A stretch of 64,000 bases of DNA from an uncultured Rhodopila sp. (GTDB lineage: Bacteria; Pseudomonadota; Alphaproteobacteria; Acetobacterales; Acetobacteraceae): assembly GCF_903915725.1 (NCBI RefSeq), contig NZ_CAIWTY010000008.1, forward strand, positions 1 to 64,000. Direction: 5' to 3'. The notes beneath the pieces were generated by a model. It had not been told where the DNA came from. It saw only the letters and a list, made by a program, of their open reading frames with translations, and ran no database searches. The position numbers and the translations under genes are program-made. Each line of letters starts with the position of its first letter. Position 1 is the stretch's first letter. This document shows positions 49,999 to 59,700 of the stretch, piece by piece.

Positions 49999-50550
49999 AT
50001 GTTCCCAAGTCCGACCCGCATGTTCCTGACGAAAGGCGTCGGCGTCCATCGCCACGCTCTCACGGCGTTCGAGTTCGCCTTGCGCGATGCGGATATCGAG
50101 CAGCAAAATCTTGTCTATGTCTCCTCCATCCTGCCGCCGCGCTGCGAGGTCATCACCCGCGAGGCCGGGGCGGAGGCGCTCAAGCCCGGCGACATCACGT
50201 TCTGCGTCATGGCGCGGGCGGAGACGAACGAGTTCGGGCGGCATATCTTTGCCAGCCTCGGGCTGGCCAAGCCGGCCGATCCGGAGATGTACGGGTATAT
50301 TTCGGAACAGCATGGATACGGCATGACTGCCGAAGCGGCCGGAGAACAGGCCGAAGACCTCGCCGCGACCATGCTCGCCTCCACCCTCGGGCTGGATTTC
50401 GATCCCGACGCCGCATGGAACGAGCGCAAGCAGATCTATGAGCACAGCCACCTGATCATCGACAGCACATCGATCACGGCAACGGCCGAATGCGGCCCGG
50501 ACGGTCACTGGACCTGCGTCGTCGCCGCCGCGGTGTTCCTGTTTTCCTGA
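49999..50550 (+). CDS. Pyruvoyl-dependent arginine decarboxylase
   Basis: 183 aa, the PvlArgDC family length. It converts arginine to agmatine using a pyruvoyl cofactor made by self-cleavage at a Ser-Ser bond, here S42-S43 in NLVYVSSILPP. Other family features are TKGVGVHRHALTAFEFALRDA, GDITFCVMARAETN and the C-terminal ECGPDGHWTCVVAAAVFLFS. The role is polyamine synthesis or acid tolerance. Neighbouring GNAT and phosphatase genes give no pathway context, and no agmatinase is nearby. Confidence 0.92.
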   Translation: MFPSPTRMFLTKGVGVHRHALTAFEFALRDADIEQQNLVYVSSILPPRCEVITREAGAEALKPGDITFCVMARAETNEFGRHIFASLGLAKPADPEMYGYISEQHGYGMTAEAAGEQAEDLAATMLASTLGLDFDPDAAWNERKQIYEHSHLIIDSTSITATAECGPDGHWTCVVAAAVFLFS

Positions 50551-50579: not shown

Positions 50580-51401
50580 ATGAAACTGCCATTTCGCTTT
50601 ACCGTCTGCGGGCTGGATGAGCTCGCCATCCACAGCAAAGCCCGGGTCAGCCACGTGCTGTCCATTCTTGACCCGGAATGGCCTGTCCCCGGGGTGTTCG
50701 GCCATTTCGGCGCGCACCGGAAACTGGAGCTTCGCTTTCACGATGTGATCGACGAAACCCCCGGATCGATTGCACCGCGTGCCGGCGACGTTCAGCAGGT
50801 GCTGGCCTTCGGTGCCGCGCTGAACCGCGATCCCGTTACTGACGCGCATCTTCTCGTTCATTGCCATGCCGGCATTTCCAGGTCATCCGCCTCGATGGCC
50901 CTGCTGATCGCACAGGCGATGCCGGACCGCTCCGGCGATGCGATCTTCGCCGATATTCTGCGCATCCGGCCGCAGATCTGGCCGAACCTGCGGATTGTCG
51001 AGATGGGCGATCACGCGCTCGGCCGAAACGGCGACCTGGTCGCCGCCGCCCACCGCATCTACAACCTTCAGATCGGCAAACGCCCTGACCTCGTCGGCGA
51101 GTTCAAGTCGGGTGGCCGCGGACGGGAAGTGGAGGCGGCGCTGGCGCTGCCAGACGCAGCCTGGGTCCTCGTAGCTGACGTTCCATGCGGCGTTTTCGGG
51201 AATTTTCTTCGCCCCTTGAAAACCCTAAAAGACCTGCCGCAGGATGACATACAGCGAGCCCGCTATGACCATCGCCGCCGGCAAGGTCATCACCCAGGCG
51301 AGCGCCATATTCTTGATCGTGCTCCATTGCAGGCCGGAACCGTTGGCCGCCATGGTCCCCGCAACGCCGCTCGAAAGCACGTGCGTGGTGGACACCGGTA
51401 G
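50580..51401 (+). CDS. Cysteine-based tyrosine protein phosphatase, with run-on C-terminus
   Basis: 273 aa from the ATG at 50580. The catalytic HCX5R signature is C95-R101 in LLVHCHAGISRSS; the general acid is probably in the ELRFHDVIDET loop. Homologues usually end soon after the HRIYNLQIGKRPDLVGEF region (about 180-200 aa). Here no stop is met and the frame continues about 60 basic residues (DHRRRQGHHPGERHILD...) into the 3' end of the convergent PiT gene, overlapping it by 177 bp. The tail is unlikely to be functional, although the reading frame is real. Confidence 0.75.
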   Translation: MKLPFRFTVCGLDELAIHSKARVSHVLSILDPEWPVPGVFGHFGAHRKLELRFHDVIDETPGSIAPRAGDVQQVLAFGAALNRDPVTDAHLLVHCHAGISRSSASMALLIAQAMPDRSGDAIFADILRIRPQIWPNLRIVEMGDHALGRNGDLVAAAHRIYNLQIGKRPDLVGEFKSGGRGREVEAALALPDAAWVLVADVPCGVFGNFLRPLKTLKDLPQDDIQRARYDHRRRQGHHPGERHILDRAPLQAGTVGRHGPRNAARKHVRGGHR

Positions 51402-52850
51402 CCCATAGGCATCCGCCAGACCGATCGTCGCCATCGCCACGATCTCGGCCGAGGCGCCCTGCGCATAGGTCAGGTGCGTCTTGCCGATCTTCTCACCCAC
51501 AGTGACAACGATGCGCTTCCAGCCCACCATCGTTCCAAGCCCCAAGGCCAGCGCGACGGACACCTTCACCCAGGTCGGGATGAACTTGGTGCCGCTGTCC
51601 AGCGACGATCGCAACGACTTCACCGCGGCGATATCGGAACTGTCGAAGCCGGGCGGACTGGCGCCCATCAGCCGCACCGCATCGGATGCCAGATACATGT
51701 CGTTGCGCACGTTCTGCGTGGCGGCGGCCGGCACCGCCTTGATCGCGCCATAGTCCTTGACCTGCCGTCCAATATCCGCCGTCAGCGTTGCAAGGGCGGC
51801 GTAGACTTCCGGCTGGTTGAGGTTGCGGGCCTGGAGCGCACCACCCACCGTTGCGCGGGCGGCCGCGGCGTCCTTCGGCGAAGCCGCAGCCCCGGCGTGG
51901 GCGTGAAAGACGTCCTCCGCGGACTGCACGGCGCGCAGAAACATCGGCGTCGTGTTTTCGGGAATGGCGCGGTTCAGCGCATAGGCCGTCGGCATCGCGC
52001 CGATCAGGATCAGCATGATCAGACCCATGCCCTTCTGCCCGTCGTTGCTGCCGTGGAAAAACGAGACGCCGGTGCAGGTCAGCACCAGAAGCGCCCGGAT
52101 CGGCGCCGGCGGCGGCTTCTTGCCCTCGGGCGCGGTATACAGCGACTTGCTGCGCACCACGAACTTCATTGCCAGAAGCAGCACCGCGGACAGCACGAAG
52201 CCGATAACCGGGCTGAACAGCAGCGCCTTGAACACATTGACGGCCTGCGCCCAGTCCACGCCGGACGTCGCCGAACCATTCGGTGAAATAAGCTGGTTGG
52301 CGATGCCGACACCCATGATGGAGCCGACCAGCGCGTGGGACGAACTGTTCGGCAGCCCCAAGGCCCAGGTTCCGAGATTCCAGATGATCGCCGCAATCAG
52401 CAGCGCGAAGATCATGGCGTAGCCGGCACCGCTGCCAACCTGAAGGATCAGTTCCACCGGCAGCAAGGTCACCACCGTGAAGGCGACCGCGCCGCTCGAC
52501 GTCAGCACACCGAGGAAGTTCCAGGTTCCGGACCAGATCACCGCCGCCAATGGCGGCAGACTGTGGGTATAGATAACCGTGGCAACCGCGTTGGCGGTGT
52601 CATGAAAGCCGTTGACGAACTCGAATCCCAGGGCGATCAGCAGGGCGATGCCAAGCAGCACAAAGGCGCCGATTGCCAGGTCGTCCTGACCTGTGGCGGC
52701 GACGTCTCTCCAGATACTGAACGCCGCATAGCCCAGGCCCGCCACGAGCACCAAAATAAATGCGATTGCACCGCGGACGTGCGGCTTTTCGTCAAGGTGC
52801 GGGAGTGGCGAGGCGCTCGTTGCGCTTTGGTTGATTGCAAGATCTGACAT
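51225..52850 (-). CDS. pit: PiT family inorganic phosphate transporter
   Basis: 541 aa with about 11-12 hydrophobic segments. The repeated PiT signatures are FVNGFHDTANAVATVIYTHSLPP, LGTWALGLPNSSSHALVGSIMGVG, FFHGSNDGQKGMGL and VGEKIGKTHLTYAQGASAEIVAMATIGLADAYGLPVSTTHVLSSGVAG. It carries metal-phosphate in symport with protons. A long cytoplasmic loop (about 250-370) is extra compared with short bacterial PiT. It lies opposite and near a DUF47 protein, the usual partner of PiT. Confidence 0.95.
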   Translation of the reverse strand: MSDLAINQSATSASPLPHLDEKPHVRGAIAFILVLVAGLGYAAFSIWRDVAATGQDDLAIGAFVLLGIALLIALGFEFVNGFHDTANAVATVIYTHSLPPLAAVIWSGTWNFLGVLTSSGAVAFTVVTLLPVELILQVGSGAGYAMIFALLIAAIIWNLGTWALGLPNSSSHALVGSIMGVGIANQLISPNGSATSGVDWAQAVNVFKALLFSPVIGFVLSAVLLLAMKFVVRSKSLYTAPEGKKPPPAPIRALLVLTCTGVSFFHGSNDGQKGMGLIMLILIGAMPTAYALNRAIPENTTPMFLRAVQSAEDVFHAHAGAAASPKDAAAARATVGGALQARNLNQPEVYAALATLTADIGRQVKDYGAIKAVPAAATQNVRNDMYLASDAVRLMGASPPGFDSSDIAAVKSLRSSLDSGTKFIPTWVKVSVALALGLGTMVGWKRIVVTVGEKIGKTHLTYAQGASAEIVAMATIGLADAYGLPVSTTHVLSSGVAGTMAANGSGLQWSTIKNMALAWVMTLPAAMVIAGSLYVILRQVF

Positions 52851-54230: not shown

Positions 54231-56126
54231 ATGAAGTCGCAGATCCTCGCCGCGATCGGCGAGCATGGACTACAACCCGCGGCGGCCCTGAACGCCGCGC
54301 TGGCCGCCAATGATCGGGTCAAATACGCCTTTTCGCTGTTGCAGATGGCGATGTCTCATGCCGAGGACCCGGAACAGACCGCGCCAACGCTGAAGCAGGA
54401 GCGTGTCGGCTGCGGCATCGATGATCCGGACCTCGACACGGCCGTCGCCGCATCCCGCATGGAGGGCACATCCTGCCACATGCCCGGCGCCGCCCGGGTC
54501 TTCGCGCGGATCGAGGAAGACGTGCGACTGATGGCCGCGCCGGTGCTCGCCGAAACGCCGGACGGACTCCCTGCCCGGGCCGATGGGCTCTTGGCGGCGC
54601 TGCCGGCAAGCAAGGACGATCTGTTCGATCCCGCCGCCACGACAGCGATGATGCAGGCCGGGCACGGCCACATCGACAGCCTGCACCATCTGGTCATGGA
54701 CCTGCACAAGCGCCTGAACGCCATGCAGGCAGCGCTGGCCGAGGAAACGCTCGATGGCGCCGCGACATACAGCCTGACCGCCGCGGACCGCCCGATGGTC
54801 GCTGCCTTCATGGCCGGCGTCAATCGGACCGCGAAACTGAAATTTGCCCATCCCGGCCTGGCCACGACAGCCACCCGCGCTGGCGACCGTCTGGTCATTC
54901 AGAACGACATCGGCACGACGGATGCGCATGTCATTGTCATCCACGTGCAGGATCTCAGCGTCAGTGTAACGTATACCGACGTGCATCCCGAAAGGCTGGC
55001 CTTCTTCCAGGATATGCTGAAGCCGCGCGGCGTCGCGTGGGAGGCCCAACGCACCGCGCTGCTCGCCGCCGGCGCGCCGTTCTATCTCGCGACCGGCACG
55101 GTGAAGGCAACCGATGAGGCTGGCTGCCAGGCCTATCTCGACTTTCTCGGCTCGCGGCTGGTCTTCCTGATCGACTGGAACCGCGCCCGCAAACAACTGC
55201 GCCAGTTCCTGCGCGGTCCGGATCGTCTTGTCCTGTTAAGCTGGGCGGCGGAGGCCGGCATCGGACATCGGGGTTTTCTGGAACTTGGCGGCGCGCGGCT
55301 GGTCAACCAGGCGATCGAGATGACCGCCGGATCATCAATGCATTTCGGCGACCGGCTGTGCGACGTGCTCGGTGATGTGGAGACCCAGGCGTTCCTGCGT
55401 TTCGTGTTTCAGACAGCGACACAGGGTCTGTTGCAAGGCACGTCGCATACCCTGATCCATGATCGTATCCGTGTGACCTTGGCGACTCATTTCAGCAACG
55501 AGCAACGGCAACTTCTGCGGATGGCAGCCGATCATGCCGGATTGATTTTCGAGCTGGCGAACCTGGTGCGGGATGGCGTGCAGGCCGAAGCGGACGGCTC
55601 CGGCAAGCGGGCCAAACGCGCCCGCCGGTTCGAACATGACGCCGATCAGTTGGTTGTGGAGACGCGGGAAGCGGTGCGCCGCCGTCCCGACTTCGGGGTC
55701 TTCCTGAAACTGCTCGAGGCGGCGGACGATGCGGCGGACGAGCTGGAAGATGCCGTCTTTCTGCTCGATCTCGATACGCTCCAGGGCAAACCGCTGGAGG
55801 CTATGCAGACACTGGCTGACCTCCTGGCGGAAGCCTCGCAGGAATGGATCAAGGCATTGGGTCATGCCGCTCAGATCGGCCGAGCGGCCGGACGGGCGGA
55901 GACCGAGGACTTCCTGGAAGCGGTGGATCGCGTTTCGGCACTGGAACATCAGGCCGACGATGCGGAACGTGCGCTGGCAGCGTCCGCCATTCAGCACGCC
56001 AAGGATTTTCGTCAGTTGCATCTGTTCACCGCCATCGGCGGCAAGTTCGAGGCCGCCGCGGATGCGCTGAAGCATGTCAGTCTGCTGCTGCGCGATCACG
56101 TGCTGGAGGATGTCATTGATGGCTGA
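54231..56126 (+). CDS. Long DUF47/PhoU-like protein with a ~430-residue N-terminal module of unknown function
   Basis: 631 aa from the ATG at 54231 (AAGGAG 5 nt upstream). Residues about 440-631 are DUF47 (PhoU-like): RRFEHDADQLVVETREAVRRRPDFGVFLKLLEAADDAADELEDAVFLL...DAVDR-like VDRVSALEHQADDAERALA with the E/D-xxx-D metal motifs. The first 430 residues have no family I recognise: helical start (AAIGEHGLQPAAALNAALAANDRVKYAFSLLQMAM), a middle with a beta-rich part (DRLVIQNDIGTTDAHVIVIHVQDLSVSVTYTDVHPERL), and LLSWAAEAGIGHRGF. DUF47 proteins usually are about 210 aa and partner PiT. It overlaps the PPDK-like gene by 8 nt. Confidence 0.85.
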   Translation: MKSQILAAIGEHGLQPAAALNAALAANDRVKYAFSLLQMAMSHAEDPEQTAPTLKQERVGCGIDDPDLDTAVAASRMEGTSCHMPGAARVFARIEEDVRLMAAPVLAETPDGLPARADGLLAALPASKDDLFDPAATTAMMQAGHGHIDSLHHLVMDLHKRLNAMQAALAEETLDGAATYSLTAADRPMVAAFMAGVNRTAKLKFAHPGLATTATRAGDRLVIQNDIGTTDAHVIVIHVQDLSVSVTYTDVHPERLAFFQDMLKPRGVAWEAQRTALLAAGAPFYLATGTVKATDEAGCQAYLDFLGSRLVFLIDWNRARKQLRQFLRGPDRLVLLSWAAEAGIGHRGFLELGGARLVNQAIEMTAGSSMHFGDRLCDVLGDVETQAFLRFVFQTATQGLLQGTSHTLIHDRIRVTLATHFSNEQRQLLRMAADHAGLIFELANLVRDGVQAEADGSGKRAKRARRFEHDADQLVVETREAVRRRPDFGVFLKLLEAADDAADELEDAVFLLDLDTLQGKPLEAMQTLADLLAEASQEWIKALGHAAQIGRAAGRAETEDFLEAVDRVSALEHQADDAERALAASAIQHAKDFRQLHLFTAIGGKFEAAADALKHVSLLLRDHVLEDVIDG

Positions 56127-57732
56127 TCTCCATTTCATTCTGCCGGGAGTGACGCCCGCCACGGGCGGCGCGCAGGAGGTTGGCAACAAAGCCTGGAGCC
56201 TGATGCTGATGGCGCAGGCCGGGCTTCCGGTGCCGCCGGCTTTCGTGCTGCCCACGGCCTGGTGCGGGCGCAGCGAACCGGCGCTTGTGAGGCAAACCCT
56301 GGCCGAGGGAATCGGGCGTCTCGAAGCCGCGACAGGTTTGACATTTGGCGGGGCGCGGCGGCCGCTGCTGGTGTCCGTCCGTTCCGGAGGTGCCGTGTCG
56401 ATGCCGGGCATGATGGAAACCGTGCTCGATGTCGGCCTGAACACCGACACGGTCGAGGCGCTGGTTCGCCTGACCGGAAATCCGCGGCTCGCCTGGGACA
56501 GTTTTCGGCGTTTCGTGCAGGGTTATGCGGAAGTCGTTTCGAACTTGCCGACCGGACCGTTCGATGCGCTTGTTGCGGCGGCGCTGGTGCAGGGTGAAGC
56601 GGAGACCGAACGGGAACTGGATCATCGCGCGTTGCGGGCACTGACTTTGGCGATGCTGGATTGCTTCCGCACTCTCACCGGCGCCGCGTTTCCGGCCGAT
56701 CCTCAACAGCAACTTGCGATGGCCGCCGAGGCGGTCTTCCGATCCTGGGATGCGCCCAAGGCGGCAAGTTACCGGCGGATGAACGGCATCAGCGACAATG
56801 CCGGCACGGCGGTTACGGTCCAGACCATGGTCTTCGGCAATGCCGGCGGCGAATCGGGTGCGGGCGTCGGCTTTACCCGCGATCCTGCCACCGGCGCGCG
56901 AACGTTCTATTTCGATTTCCAGTTCAACGGCCAGGGCGAGGACGTCGTCGCCGGCCGCCACAAGCTGCGCGATAATGATCGCCTGCGCCTTGTACTGCCC
57001 GCCGTCTGGAAACGGCTGAACGACATCTGCCACACGCTGGAGGTACTGTTTGGCGATGCGCAGGACTTCGAGTTTACTGTGCAGTCATCCGAGTTGTTCA
57101 TGCTTCAGTCGCGGCGAGCCAAGCGCACGGACTGGGCGGCTTTGGCAATCGCCGTCGACATGGTTCAGGAGGGCGCATTGACCCCGGCCGAGGGGCTGGC
57201 GCGGCTGGATGGCATCGACCTGGACGCCGTGGTCAGGACCAGCTTCGTGCAGCCTGTCCCTGCGACCCTGGCGACGGCTCAGATTGCCAGCATGGGCGTT
57301 GCGTCCGGCGCCATCGCGTTGGATCCGGCAGCCGTGAAGCGGATGACGACAGAAGGGACGCCGGCGATCCTGGTGCGCCGGGATACGGTGACCTCGGATA
57401 TCGAGGGGATGGCTTTGGCCGCCGGGATTCTGACGGCCTCGGGCGGCCGGACATCGCATGCGGCGGTGGTGGCGCGCCAACTGGGGAAAGTGTGCCTCGT
57501 GGCTTGTCCGGGACTGGAGATCGATCTCGACAGGCGCCAGTGCGGTATCGGGGGGACGCGCCTGGACGAGGGCGATTTCCTGTCGCTGGACGGCAATTCC
57601 GGTGCGGTGCATGCGGGCCGTCTGGCGTTGTTGACCGAGAGACCGGAGCTGGCGCTGGCGGTTGTCGCGGGCTGGCACAAAGCGGACCATGGCAAGGCCA
57701 AGCGGAGACCCCGTGTGGCGCGGCCCGGGTAG
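56119..57732 (+). CDS. Pyruvate-phosphate-dikinase-like protein lacking the PEP-binding domain
   Basis: 537 aa (full PPDK is about 880). It has the ATP-grasp nucleotide domain typical of [71 protein letters not shown] and [20 protein letters not shown]. The swivelling phosphohistidine domain (about 395-510) carries H447 in [16 protein letters not shown]. It then stops; the C-terminal PEP/pyruvate TIM barrel is missing. It could autophosphorylate on His with ATP and Pi and pass the phosphate on. It overlaps the DUF47 gene by 8 nt, so the two are coupled. Confidence 0.9.
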
Positions 57733-57875
57733 TCTCCGAAGCTGCGGAAACGACTGTCAGCCGCTCAGGATCGGTTTTACCGGACGTTCGGTGGCACGCA
57801 CTGCTCGATAGGGCGCGGTGCTTCGAGAAACTGATCGCGCCTCGCCTGCGCGAGCGACATAGGGATCGGATTATC

Positions 57876-58706
57876 ATGGGCGAAACAATAGCCATCGGCG
57901 CACCGGGTGCCGTCGTATCACCGATGGGAACGCCTGAGGCGGGAATCCGCAACCCGCCGAAAATGGCGGTCCGGCATTTGGATTTCTATTACGGTGACAA
58001 TCATGTTTTGAAGGATGTTTCGCTGGACCTGCCGCCCCGGCAGGTTACCGGCCTGATCGGCCCATCCGGCTGCGGAAAATCGACGTTGTTGCGGGTACTC
58101 AACCGGATGTACGAGCTATATCCGGCGCAGCACCTGACTGGCGCGGTAACCCTCGACGGTCGCGACATCCTTGGCCCTGCAGTTGACCTCCGCCGGTTGC
58201 GCAGCCGCGTCGGCATGGTGGCGCAAGAGCAGACGACCTTCCCGATGTCGATCCACGACAACATCGCATTCGGCATCAAGCTGCACGAGCATCTTTCCCG
58301 TGCTGAACGAGATCACCGGGTGGAGGACGCGCTGACCGCCGCCGGCCTTTGGACCGAGGTGAAGGATCGGCTGCGGGAGCCGGCAAGCGCCCTGTCCGGC
58401 GGCCAGCAACAGCGCCTGTGCATAGCCCGCACCCTGGCGACCCGGCCGGAGGTCATCCTGCTGGACGAGCCAACGAGTGCGCTGGACCCGATCAGCATGG
58501 CGAAGATCGAGGATATGATCGATACCCTGAAGCAGACGATCACGATCGCTCTGGTGACCCATAACTTGCAACAGGCGGCGCGGTGCGCCGATCAGGTCGC
58601 GTTTTTCTATTTGGGGGAAGTGGTGGAGGTTGGTCCGTCGGCACAGATGTTCACAGCGCCCAAACAGACGCGGACACAGAATTACATAACCGGTAAGTTT
58701 GGCTGA
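57876..58706 (+). CDS. pstB: PstB-like phosphate ABC-transporter ATPase, orphan
   Basis: 276 aa from the ATG at 57876. ABC ATPase with Walker [11 protein letters not shown]-loop, ABC signature [15 protein letters not shown], Walker [13 protein letters not shown] and the switch His in [31 protein letters not shown] and NYITGKFG at the C-terminus are PstB hallmarks. No PstS, PstC or PstA gene is near. It lies 143 bp behind the PPDK-like gene, on the same strand. The N-terminal 30 residues ([21 protein letters not shown]) are extra. It may work with distant PstCA or in regulation. Confidence 0.92.
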
Positions 58707-58842
58707 AGGCTGCCGGTGCGATTGCCCTTTCGTCTTGCGCCCGCCGCTCCGCGGCAACGGCTGAAGGAAGCCCGAAGCGAAGCGTAACCTCCATGAATTT
58801 TTTCAGACAATCCTGGTCCAGGCATCGTCAGGGCCTGCCCTC

Positions 58843-59700
58843 GTGCTACTCCGCTCAAGAAATCATTTGCGCGGAAACATGCAGCCCGGGCACCTCCCGA
58901 CCATCGACTGGCGCTACTGGCTCGCCATCCTCATCGCCAGCGTGTGCGGCACGAATCTCGGTGACCTTGGCTCGCAAACCATGGGTCTCGGCTTCGTCAG
59001 CGCATTGCTGCCGTTCGCGGCGGCGTTCGCATTCCTGTTCCGAGTGCAGCGGCGAGCAGGCCGCGCTCGGGAACTCTGTTATTGGCTTATGATCATCGTC
59101 TGCCGCGCGGCCGCCACGAACATCGCAGACCTCGCCACGCACGAGCTTAAGGTGGCATACAGCCTAACCGCCTGCGCACTCGTGGTACTGCTGGTTACCA
59201 TCCTGGCAGTGGGCGCCGCACTCGGGCAAACCACTGTCCGCAGCACGCGTCTCGGCGACGGACCGTGGCAGAATGTGCCGGACGCAAATCCTACCTACTG
59301 GGCTGCGATATTGACGGCGAGCGTGTTCGGCACGGCAACGGGCGATTTCATCGCCGACGATTGCTGGCTTGGCGTCGGTCCGGCGGCCCTGGTCCTGACG
59401 GTCCTTACGGCGATGCTGGTTCTGGTCAGCCTGCGTGATGGACCCGAAATAAAGCCTTTGTACTGGCTGACGATCGTGGCGGTTCGGATCGCCGGCACCA
59501 ATATCGGCGATTTCCTCGCCGGTGAGGATGGGCTGAATGTCGGGATCCCGGCGGCCAGCGTCGCTAGCTGCGCAGTTCTGGCTTGCGTCGTATTCCTTCG
59601 AAAAGACGGCCGCCGCATGCCCGTGCTCCACGCCGCTCGTGGTCGTTCTCCGGCATCCGAACCTGCTCCGCAAGCTCGTCGCCTTTTCGGGCTGCTATGA
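58843..59700 (+). CDS. Four-fold-repeat multi-pass membrane protein (COG4705-like)
   Basis: 285 aa (start GTG at 58843, or ATG at 58879 giving 273 aa). It has about 8-9 transmembrane segments. A motif recurs four times: YWLAILIASVCGTNLGDL, YWLMIIVCRAAATNIADL, YWAAILTASVFGTATGDF, YWLTIVAVRIAGTNIGDF, i.e. YW...(G/A)T..(G/A)D, a repeat seen in 'uncharacterised membrane-anchored' COG4705 proteins. The Asp and Thr residues in the helices suggest ion or solute handling. It is last in the run of phosphate-linked genes on the plus strand. Confidence 0.8.
   Translation: MLLRSRNHLRGNMQPGHLPTIDWRYWLAILIASVCGTNLGDLGSQTMGLGFVSALLPFAAAFAFLFRVQRRAGRARELCYWLMIIVCRAAATNIADLATHELKVAYSLTACALVVLLVTILAVGAALGQTTVRSTRLGDGPWQNVPDANPTYWAAILTASVFGTATGDFIADDCWLGVGPAALVLTVLTAMLVLVSLRDGPEIKPLYWLTIVAVRIAGTNIGDFLAGEDGLNVGIPAASVASCAVLACVVFLRKDGRRMPVLHAARGRSPASEPAPQARRLFGLL

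Follow-up and report, generated by a model that had tools for sequence, protein, structure and literature searches.

A short pyruvate phosphate dikinase and its PhoU-fused partner form a conserved two-gene module that looks like an undescribed phosphate-response device

Introduction

What can a dikinase do that keeps its ATP-binding and phosphohistidine domains and has no pyruvate domain? The question is raised by a 64,000-nucleotide stretch of DNA from an uncultured Rhodopila sp. (assembly GCF_903915725.1, contig NZ_CAIWTY010000008.1, positions 1 to 64,000 of the forward strand; hereafter the window). Here, a gene for a long DUF47/PhoU-like protein (D) runs into a gene for a short pyruvate phosphate dikinase (PPDK), which we call K. 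An initial annotation of the window had grouped these two genes with a PiT-type transporter, an orphan PstB and a four-repeat membrane protein as a possible phosphate-sensing or phosphotransfer module. All five genes are indeed present (Table 1), and the 8-nucleotide overlap that it reported agrees with the coordinates of the D stop and the K start (56119–56126). In the following, we ask which of the five belong together, what the two overlapping genes encode, and how far they can be linked to phosphate. Our literature search, with most subscription papers outside its scope, found no description of the D-K pair, which looks like a phosphate-response device that has so far gone undescribed.

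Results and Discussion

D and K are a conserved pair

A scan of named genomes yielded 296 relatives of D, the best 80 of which were kept; these are the 80 loci referred to throughout, and the scan covered the flanks near each of them. K lies directly after D in 77 of the 80 loci, and in the other three (L083, L103 and L108) the contig ends. The gap between the two genes is exactly −8 nucleotides in 28 of the 77 loci, with start codons chosen by script. The pairwise distances of D and K, compared over 70 loci, are strongly correlated (r 0.92), which is what an operon inherited as a unit would give. The pairing seen in the window is therefore conserved in other genomes, and it is well supported that D and K constitute a real two-gene module.

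The loci are labelled as Alpha-, Beta-, Gamma- and Deltaproteobacteria, Acidobacteriaceae-type bacteria, Planctomycetes and methanogenic archaea, although most come from metagenome-assembled genomes and individual taxon assignments may be wrong. Two genome samples, for which the best four (phylum, D and K), six (family, D) or seven (family, K) candidates per genome were scored, show how closely the two genes co-occur. Among 200 genomes of the same family, including that of the window, 17 carry D; K-type matches (E ≤ 1e-188) were obtained for 15 of these 17 and for no other genome. Of the two D hits that lack a K match, one (L042) lies where the contig breaks off within K, and the other is a 50-residue piece of D. 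Among 299 genomes of the phylum, D was found in 3, including our own, and a short K of the same type only in the same 3. The K profile matched 126 of these genomes at 1e-140, a cut-off that is blind to more distant types of short PPDK, and outside the three the frames are at least 702 residues long. D was not found in three genomes of the same genus listed in the family sample; the distribution of the pair is thus patchy. Among 72,556 plasmid records, three also contain D; two belong to Methylocella tundrae and the third to Aquabacterium olei. In these records K is annotated as “PEP/pyruvate-binding domain-containing protein” (PEP, phosphoenolpyruvate) and D as “phosphate transport regulator” or “DUF47 family protein”, except that in one Methylocella record D coincides with hypothetical proteins. 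The D proteins of Acidobacteriaceae dw_441 (L056) and of a Granulicella metagenome-assembled genome (L057) are 73–75% identical to the alphaproteobacterial D of the window. If the assemblies are clean, such identities suggest a recent transfer of D-K between phyla.

Some copies have decayed. The genome of the window carries a second D-K pair on contig C22 (D 93% and K 88% identical). A K remnant with a broken frame lies on contig C43 (L006, 9311–9531), between genes for an Na/H antiporter and a P-type ATPase, and a relative, L051, has a whole D-K pair at the matching place. In L048 (8877–9686, minus strand), one open frame joins D residues ~1–239 to the K tail through an internal deletion, with PstB directly after; the same genome also carries an intact pair. 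We read these two loci as showing the older D-K-PstB order (L048) and the loss of copies.

K is a short dikinase that keeps its catalytic residues

The Pfam scan identified two domains in K, PPDK_N (PF01326, E 1.2e-35) and the PEP-utilizers mobile, or His, domain (PF00391, E 1.4e-19), and no match to the PEP-utilizers barrel. The His domain occupies residues 415–495 of 537. As K ends ~40 residues beyond it, the rest of the gene cannot contain the barrel, and the initial description of a PPDK lacking the PEP barrel stands. K scores 483.3 bits with the NCBI model for PPDK (TIGR01828), below the equivalog cut-off of 843.45, and 407.8 bits with that for short PPDKs (NF004531, PRK05878), also below its equivalog cut-off of 456; the score with the PEP synthase model is 67.5 bits. 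K shares the first two domains and the same catalytic residues with PPDK, and is 42% identical to the separate, full-length PPDK encoded on contig C50 of the same genome. It differs in the missing barrel, in its score against the PPDK model and in its constant partner, D.

Conservation was assessed in an alignment (A4) of the window sequence and 70 of the 74 complete K rows (L050, L055, L078 and L099 were left out; alignment A2 lacks L041, which has a stop within the coordinates used, and L042 and L032, which meet contig ends). His447 of K aligns with the catalytic histidine of C. symbiosum PPDK, which we take to be number 455, and the roles of the ATP-site and His residues are presumably those of the C. 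symbiosum residues to which the K positions align. Arg88, Arg131, Glu318, Gln330, Arg332 and His447 are kept in all 71 sequences and Lys24 in 70, while position 316 is Asp in 55 and Glu in 16. Judged by these residues, K looks catalytically active. The short tail is also conserved (Pro509 in 71/71, Trp519 in 69/71), and we infer that it corresponds to the swivel linker, beyond which the pyruvate domain would follow.

The initial annotation had allowed that the short PPDK might be a local truncation. This is not the case, since the loci in named genomes contain 74 complete K frames of 459–564 residues; the shortest, in L055, stops before the end of its tblastn match. In a tree of 60 rows, the 26 K rows (24 of the 71 alignment rows and 2 further K) form one clade with a support of 100/100. 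Outside it lie the 29 full-length PPDKs and, from Rhodococcus, Streptomyces and Methylibium plasmids, 3 short and 2 odd PPDKs, although 4 of these last 5 rows are long-branched and their placement is less sure.

The closest described counterpart is VadK (Rv1127c), a short PPDK of actinobacteria that is reported to autophosphorylate its catalytic histidine with ATP and Mg, and that, according to its authors, is unable to function as a PPDK (PMC13400623). As described there, VadK resembles K in having the ATP-binding and His domains, no pyruvate domain and a conserved catalytic histidine; unlike K, it is tied to the methylcitrate cycle, and the main text of that article mentions no DUF47 or PhoU partner. 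The short-PPDK domain cut is thus already known from VadK, and the new elements here are a constant partner fused to PhoU and the link to phosphate.

D joins a PhoU-like domain to a large unassigned region

PF01865 (DUF47/PhoU_div) matches D at 29.9 bits (cut-off 24.4) over residues 426–616 only, and the C-terminus of D is predicted by modeling to have the PhoU fold. It contains four E/D-xxx-D motifs (468–472, 499–503, 572–576 and 607–611) whose residues are identical in 69–77 of the 77 sequences of our alignment (A3, the window and 76 of the 77 complete D rows; the near-identical L050 was left out, and the rows of L083, L091 and L108 are incomplete). In the N-terminal region, many polar residues are kept: His152, His159, His207, Asn225, Asp226, His233, Asp250, His252, Asp315, Asn317 and Arg320 are invariant (77/77).

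When this region was searched in Pfam, at E ≤ 1, no family was matched by more than 6 of the 77 members (PilZ-like), and the best match among PDB sequences had an E-value of 0.28. Neither a Foldseek search of the PDB with the N-terminal model nor a search of a viral library with the whole D model gave any match at E ≤ 0.001. For residues 181–313, the C-terminal domain of T4 MotA, YbjN and secretion-chaperone-like proteins are tentative fold candidates. DUF1045 was matched by 2 of the 77 members (best E 3.6e-5) and is a possible fold lead. A likeness between residues 12–45 and a histidine-kinase dimerisation helix, noticed by eye and in weak CpxA and ChpT matches, had no support from Pfam and was set aside.

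D resembles the DUF47/PhoU_div proteins that are paired with PiT in the predicted PhoU fold and the E/D-xxx-D motifs of its C-terminus; however, it is about three times longer, has an N-terminus of no assigned family, and is partnered by K instead of PiT. With PhoU of the Pst/PhoR complex it shares the predicted fold, a phosphate neighbourhood and, in some loci, a nearby PstB. In contrast to PhoU, D carries a large additional region and has a dikinase as its partner, and the PstB of the window has no adjoining permease.

Phosphate genes surround the pair in a fifth of the loci

Of the 80 D-K loci, 17 have a gene of the Pst, Pho or polyphosphate systems or of lipid remodelling under phosphate starvation, compared to none of 40 control loci (Fisher p 0.0005, to be taken only as a guide). 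Each query's own locus was excluded; the controls are full-length PPDK loci, on average longer, picked from a longer list where the PPDK lies well inside the contig. Ugp-like ABC genes near some loci all fell below their cut-offs and were not counted.

The richest example is from Sulfuritalea (L101), where a PlcP-like metallophosphoesterase and a glycosyltransferase are encoded upstream of D-K, and an OlsB-like gene, phoR, phoB, phoU, pstB and pstA downstream. L105 has PlcP-like, glycosyltransferase, OlsB-like, phoR-like and phoB genes, and L094 the PlcP-like and glycosyltransferase genes. PhoR, PhoB, PhoU, PstB and PstA of L101 and PhoB of L105 score over their cut-offs and OlsB below; the assignments of PlcP and Agt are based on gene order and on Pfam domains. 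These two proteins are reported to replace phospholipids during phosphate limitation (PMC4796936; PMC9239053). In methanogens, genes for polyphosphate kinase 1, an exopolyphosphatase-like protein and a PstS-family protein lie 0.9–9 kb upstream of D; the kinase is over its cut-off in L128 and 85% identical in L126, and the exopolyphosphatase-like gene is below. A Ppk-like gene lies near D-K in L114, an exopolyphosphatase-family gene 163 nucleotides before D in Thiobacillus (L125), and pstS-pstC-pstA, all over cut-off, diverge from D-K in L032, an IMG/VR contig of 15.9 kb of which 8.3 kb were examined. Filed as viral, L032 resembles a bacterial chromosome and not a phage in the examined part.

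At 7 of 76 loci, Pho-box-like repeats (at least 12 of 14 positions) lie upstream of D. Markov sequences gave a mean of 0.4, a search inside D gave 1 of 76, and of 400 permuted motifs a single one reached 7 loci. We consider the phosphate link of D-K well supported. The theme proposed for the window thus survives, carried by PstB and by Pho-regulon, polyphosphate and lipid-remodelling neighbours; the PiT transporter and the four-repeat membrane protein, which the proposal also included, do not recur.

PstB is an accessory, and two neighbours are not part of the module

The PstB of the window scores 355 bits with TIGR00972 (cut-off 343.2) and has the Walker A, signature and Walker B motifs. Among the 15 PstA-like places listed for the genome, none falls on contig C8, which carries this PstB; the best-scoring pstB of the genome is on C106, together with pstC and pstA. 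PstB (at least 200 bits) is present in the flanks of 10 of the 80 loci, all alphaproteobacterial, at positions that vary from downstream to upstream or divergent. It accompanies both the D-K pair of the window and its C22 paralogue, and L101 in addition has PstB within its pst operon. In L050, PstS lies 6.1 kb from D. Permeases beside the PstBs of other genomes were looked for by single-query searches. In a tree of 25 PstB rows, 10 of the 13 D-K-associated rows (8 distinct sequences) fall in one clade (98/92), which adjoins PstBs of Acetobacteraceae and has Bosea and Rhodoblastus rows inside; those of L071, L084 and L085 are outside. It looks from this tree as if PstB travelled with D-K and was perhaps recruited more than once. 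PstB is retained from the original proposal as a phosphate-linked neighbour, not as a core part; it is an accessory in some Alphaproteobacteria.

The other two proposed members were dropped. PiT, which in the window is divergent from D and 1.38 kb upstream, occurs in none of the 80 examined flanks, and a separate PiT gene of the same genome, on C43, adjoins a canonical DUF47 gene. The DUF347 four-repeat membrane protein has no match in the 80 loci either.

Table 1. Genes and domains of the D-K locus in the window
Feature	Position	Strand	Remarks
D, DUF47/PhoU-like protein with ~400-residue N-terminus of no assigned family	54231–56126	+	631 residues; core part 1
PhoU-fold domain of D, residues 426–616	55506–56078	+	PF01865 and predicted fold
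K, short PPDK with ATP-grasp and phosphohistidine domains, His447	56119–57732	+	537 residues; core part 2
Orphan PstB ATPase	57876–58706	+	TIGR00972; lineage-specific accessory
DUF347 membrane protein, four repeats	58879–59700	+	PF03988, 4 stretches; neighbour not conserved with the pair
PiT-type phosphate transporter	51225–52850	−	PHO4, Pfam E 6.8e-85; neighbour not conserved with the pair

Other neighbours and side observations

A scan of the region for promoters gave 0 sites, and terminator-like sites were no more numerous than in shuffled sequences. Cation P-type ATPases account for 7 of the 34 scanned same-strand first genes after K, and 4 of the 7 belong to one Rhodopila lineage; the ATPase of the Rhodopila-type copy is of the Mg type (861 bits with TIGR01524, cut-off 610). 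A small DUF498-like gene is found within 6 kb of D-K in L064, L090, L126 and L128 (archaea, delta- and alphaproteobacteria), directly upstream of D in the last two. A gene recognized by eye as ribonucleotide-reductase-like lies near D on the opposite strand in six loci of betaproteobacterial type (L096, L103, L104, L106, L107 and L108). Near the PiT gene of the window, positions 49999–50547 encode a pyruvoyl-dependent arginine decarboxylase (Pfam 2.3e-55), and in L071 an ornithine/arginine decarboxylase of the pyridoxal-phosphate type is encoded downstream of D-K-PstB.

A proposed function and its alternatives

Constant pairing, kept catalytic residues, a predicted PhoU fold and phosphate genes near about one pair in five are the computed features that a function for D-K has to explain. 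The explanation that we tentatively prefer, at a confidence somewhat short of even, is that D and K act in the phosphate response as a two-protein phosphohistidine module. K would bind Mg-ATP in its ATP-grasp domain and then autophosphorylate His447 as in the first half-reaction of PPDK, a step that we expect by analogy with the short PPDK VadK. PPDK uses inorganic phosphate (Pi) where PEP synthase uses water; since K is closer to PPDK than to PEP synthase, formation of phosphorylated K would need both ATP and Pi. Without a pyruvate domain, no PEP would be made. We infer that the swivelling His domain would instead dock on the constant partner, and that D would accept the phosphoryl group, or change state once K is phosphorylated. 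The PhoU domain of D would then influence how phosphate is taken up or stored, by way of PstB in the loci that have it.

Several observations weigh against this proposal. No experiment on D or K was found in our literature search. The neighbour test found no phosphate gene in 63 of the 80 loci; its query families were picked after the D-K loci had been viewed, some of the loci are close relatives and so not independent, and every control comes from Pseudomonadota, which is why the p-value serves as a guide. With the exception of PstB, of cation ATPases and of several minor groups, D-K has different neighbours in different genomes. Cation P-type ATPases are themselves present at 8 of the 80 loci and at none of the 40 controls (p 0.03), which could mean metal homeostasis instead of phosphate homeostasis. 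Six of the 7 best Pho-box-like sites are on the strand opposite D, and some may serve a divergent neighbour; upstream of D in the window, no Pho box was found (9 of 14 positions, compared to a shuffle mean of 9.2). Finally, the assay of VadK, as described in PMC13400623, lists ATP and Mg and not Pi, so the Pi dependence of a short dikinase stays a prediction.

The main rival, which we regard as possible and yet unlikely, is that D-K is a two-subunit metabolic dikinase, in which the N-terminus of D holds the missing acceptor or donor site and K shuttles phosphate from or to ATP; a phosphorylated metabolite, pyrophosphate or polyphosphate would be possible substrates. The many invariant polar residues in the N-terminus of D are reminiscent of an active site, and in methanogens the genes close to the pair include those for polyphosphate kinase 1 and an exopolyphosphatase-like protein. 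Rifampin phosphotransferase, as described in PMC4844700, offers a precedent, since a rifampin-binding domain replaces its pyruvate domain; it and similar dikinases use an ATP-grasp and a swivelling His domain for a task other than pyruvate, as K may do, with the difference that the third domain is in the same chain. The Pst and Pho neighbourhoods fit regulation equally well, and the fold searches of D produced no match clear enough to identify an enzyme site. A PhoU domain is, to our knowledge, not usual in enzymes, which counts against a dikinase of this kind, and we know of no PhoU part in dikinases of the rifampin phosphotransferase type.

Could K be a VadK-type regulatory kinase mainly of carbon metabolism, for example of the methylcitrate cycle, with incidental phosphate neighbours? 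We think this improbable, even though K has the domain cut and catalytic histidine described for VadK. The pair on the Methylocella plasmid is located after fatty-acid oxidation genes, and four Rhodopila-type copies (L005, L049, L050 and L087) are near acetate-kinase-like and phaC-like genes, recognized by eye, and near a phosphate-acetyltransferase-like gene (BLAST cluster of L113_4). However, K and the actinobacterial short or odd PPDKs group separately, in a tree that does not include VadK itself and in which those rows are long-branched; D is constant with K, whereas neither PhoU nor DUF47 appears in the main text on VadK; and phosphate neighbours are enriched.

A role in the balance of divalent cations (Mg or Ca), with phosphate as the counter-ion and the PhoU domain of D as a metal sensor, is less probable still. 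It would account for P-type ATPases being the commonest same-strand gene after K, of Mg type in the Rhodopila-type copy, and for the PhoU-type E/D-xxx-D motifs kept in D; yet the majority of those ATPases come from a single Rhodopila lineage, and such genes are found at fewer than half as many loci as phosphate genes. That K is a decayed PPDK in a functionless pair is very improbable, for although copies do get lost, as the C43 and L048 remnants show, the idea is contradicted by the open frames and the catalytic residues that persist in different phyla and in archaea, by a cut near the domain boundary and by the conserved tail.

Implications

The phosphohistidine module proposed here could be taken a step further, to a PPDK-derived, non-canonical phosphate sensor that is common to bacteria and archaea and runs parallel to PhoR/PstSCAB; this is possible, and we put it forward with clearly less confidence than the module itself. 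The classical phosphate systems read flux through PstSCAB. By comparison, K would measure cytoplasmic ATP and Pi through the phosphorylation of one histidine, and the PhoU-fused D would then set phosphate uptake, polyphosphate storage or the Pho regulon. The sensing of phosphate inside the cytoplasm is an unsettled question, for which D-K offers a concrete and testable candidate. If the proposal is true, it would suggest that short PPDKs were turned into signalling proteins more than once, and the pairing with K gives a context to a 400-residue region that has no assigned family.

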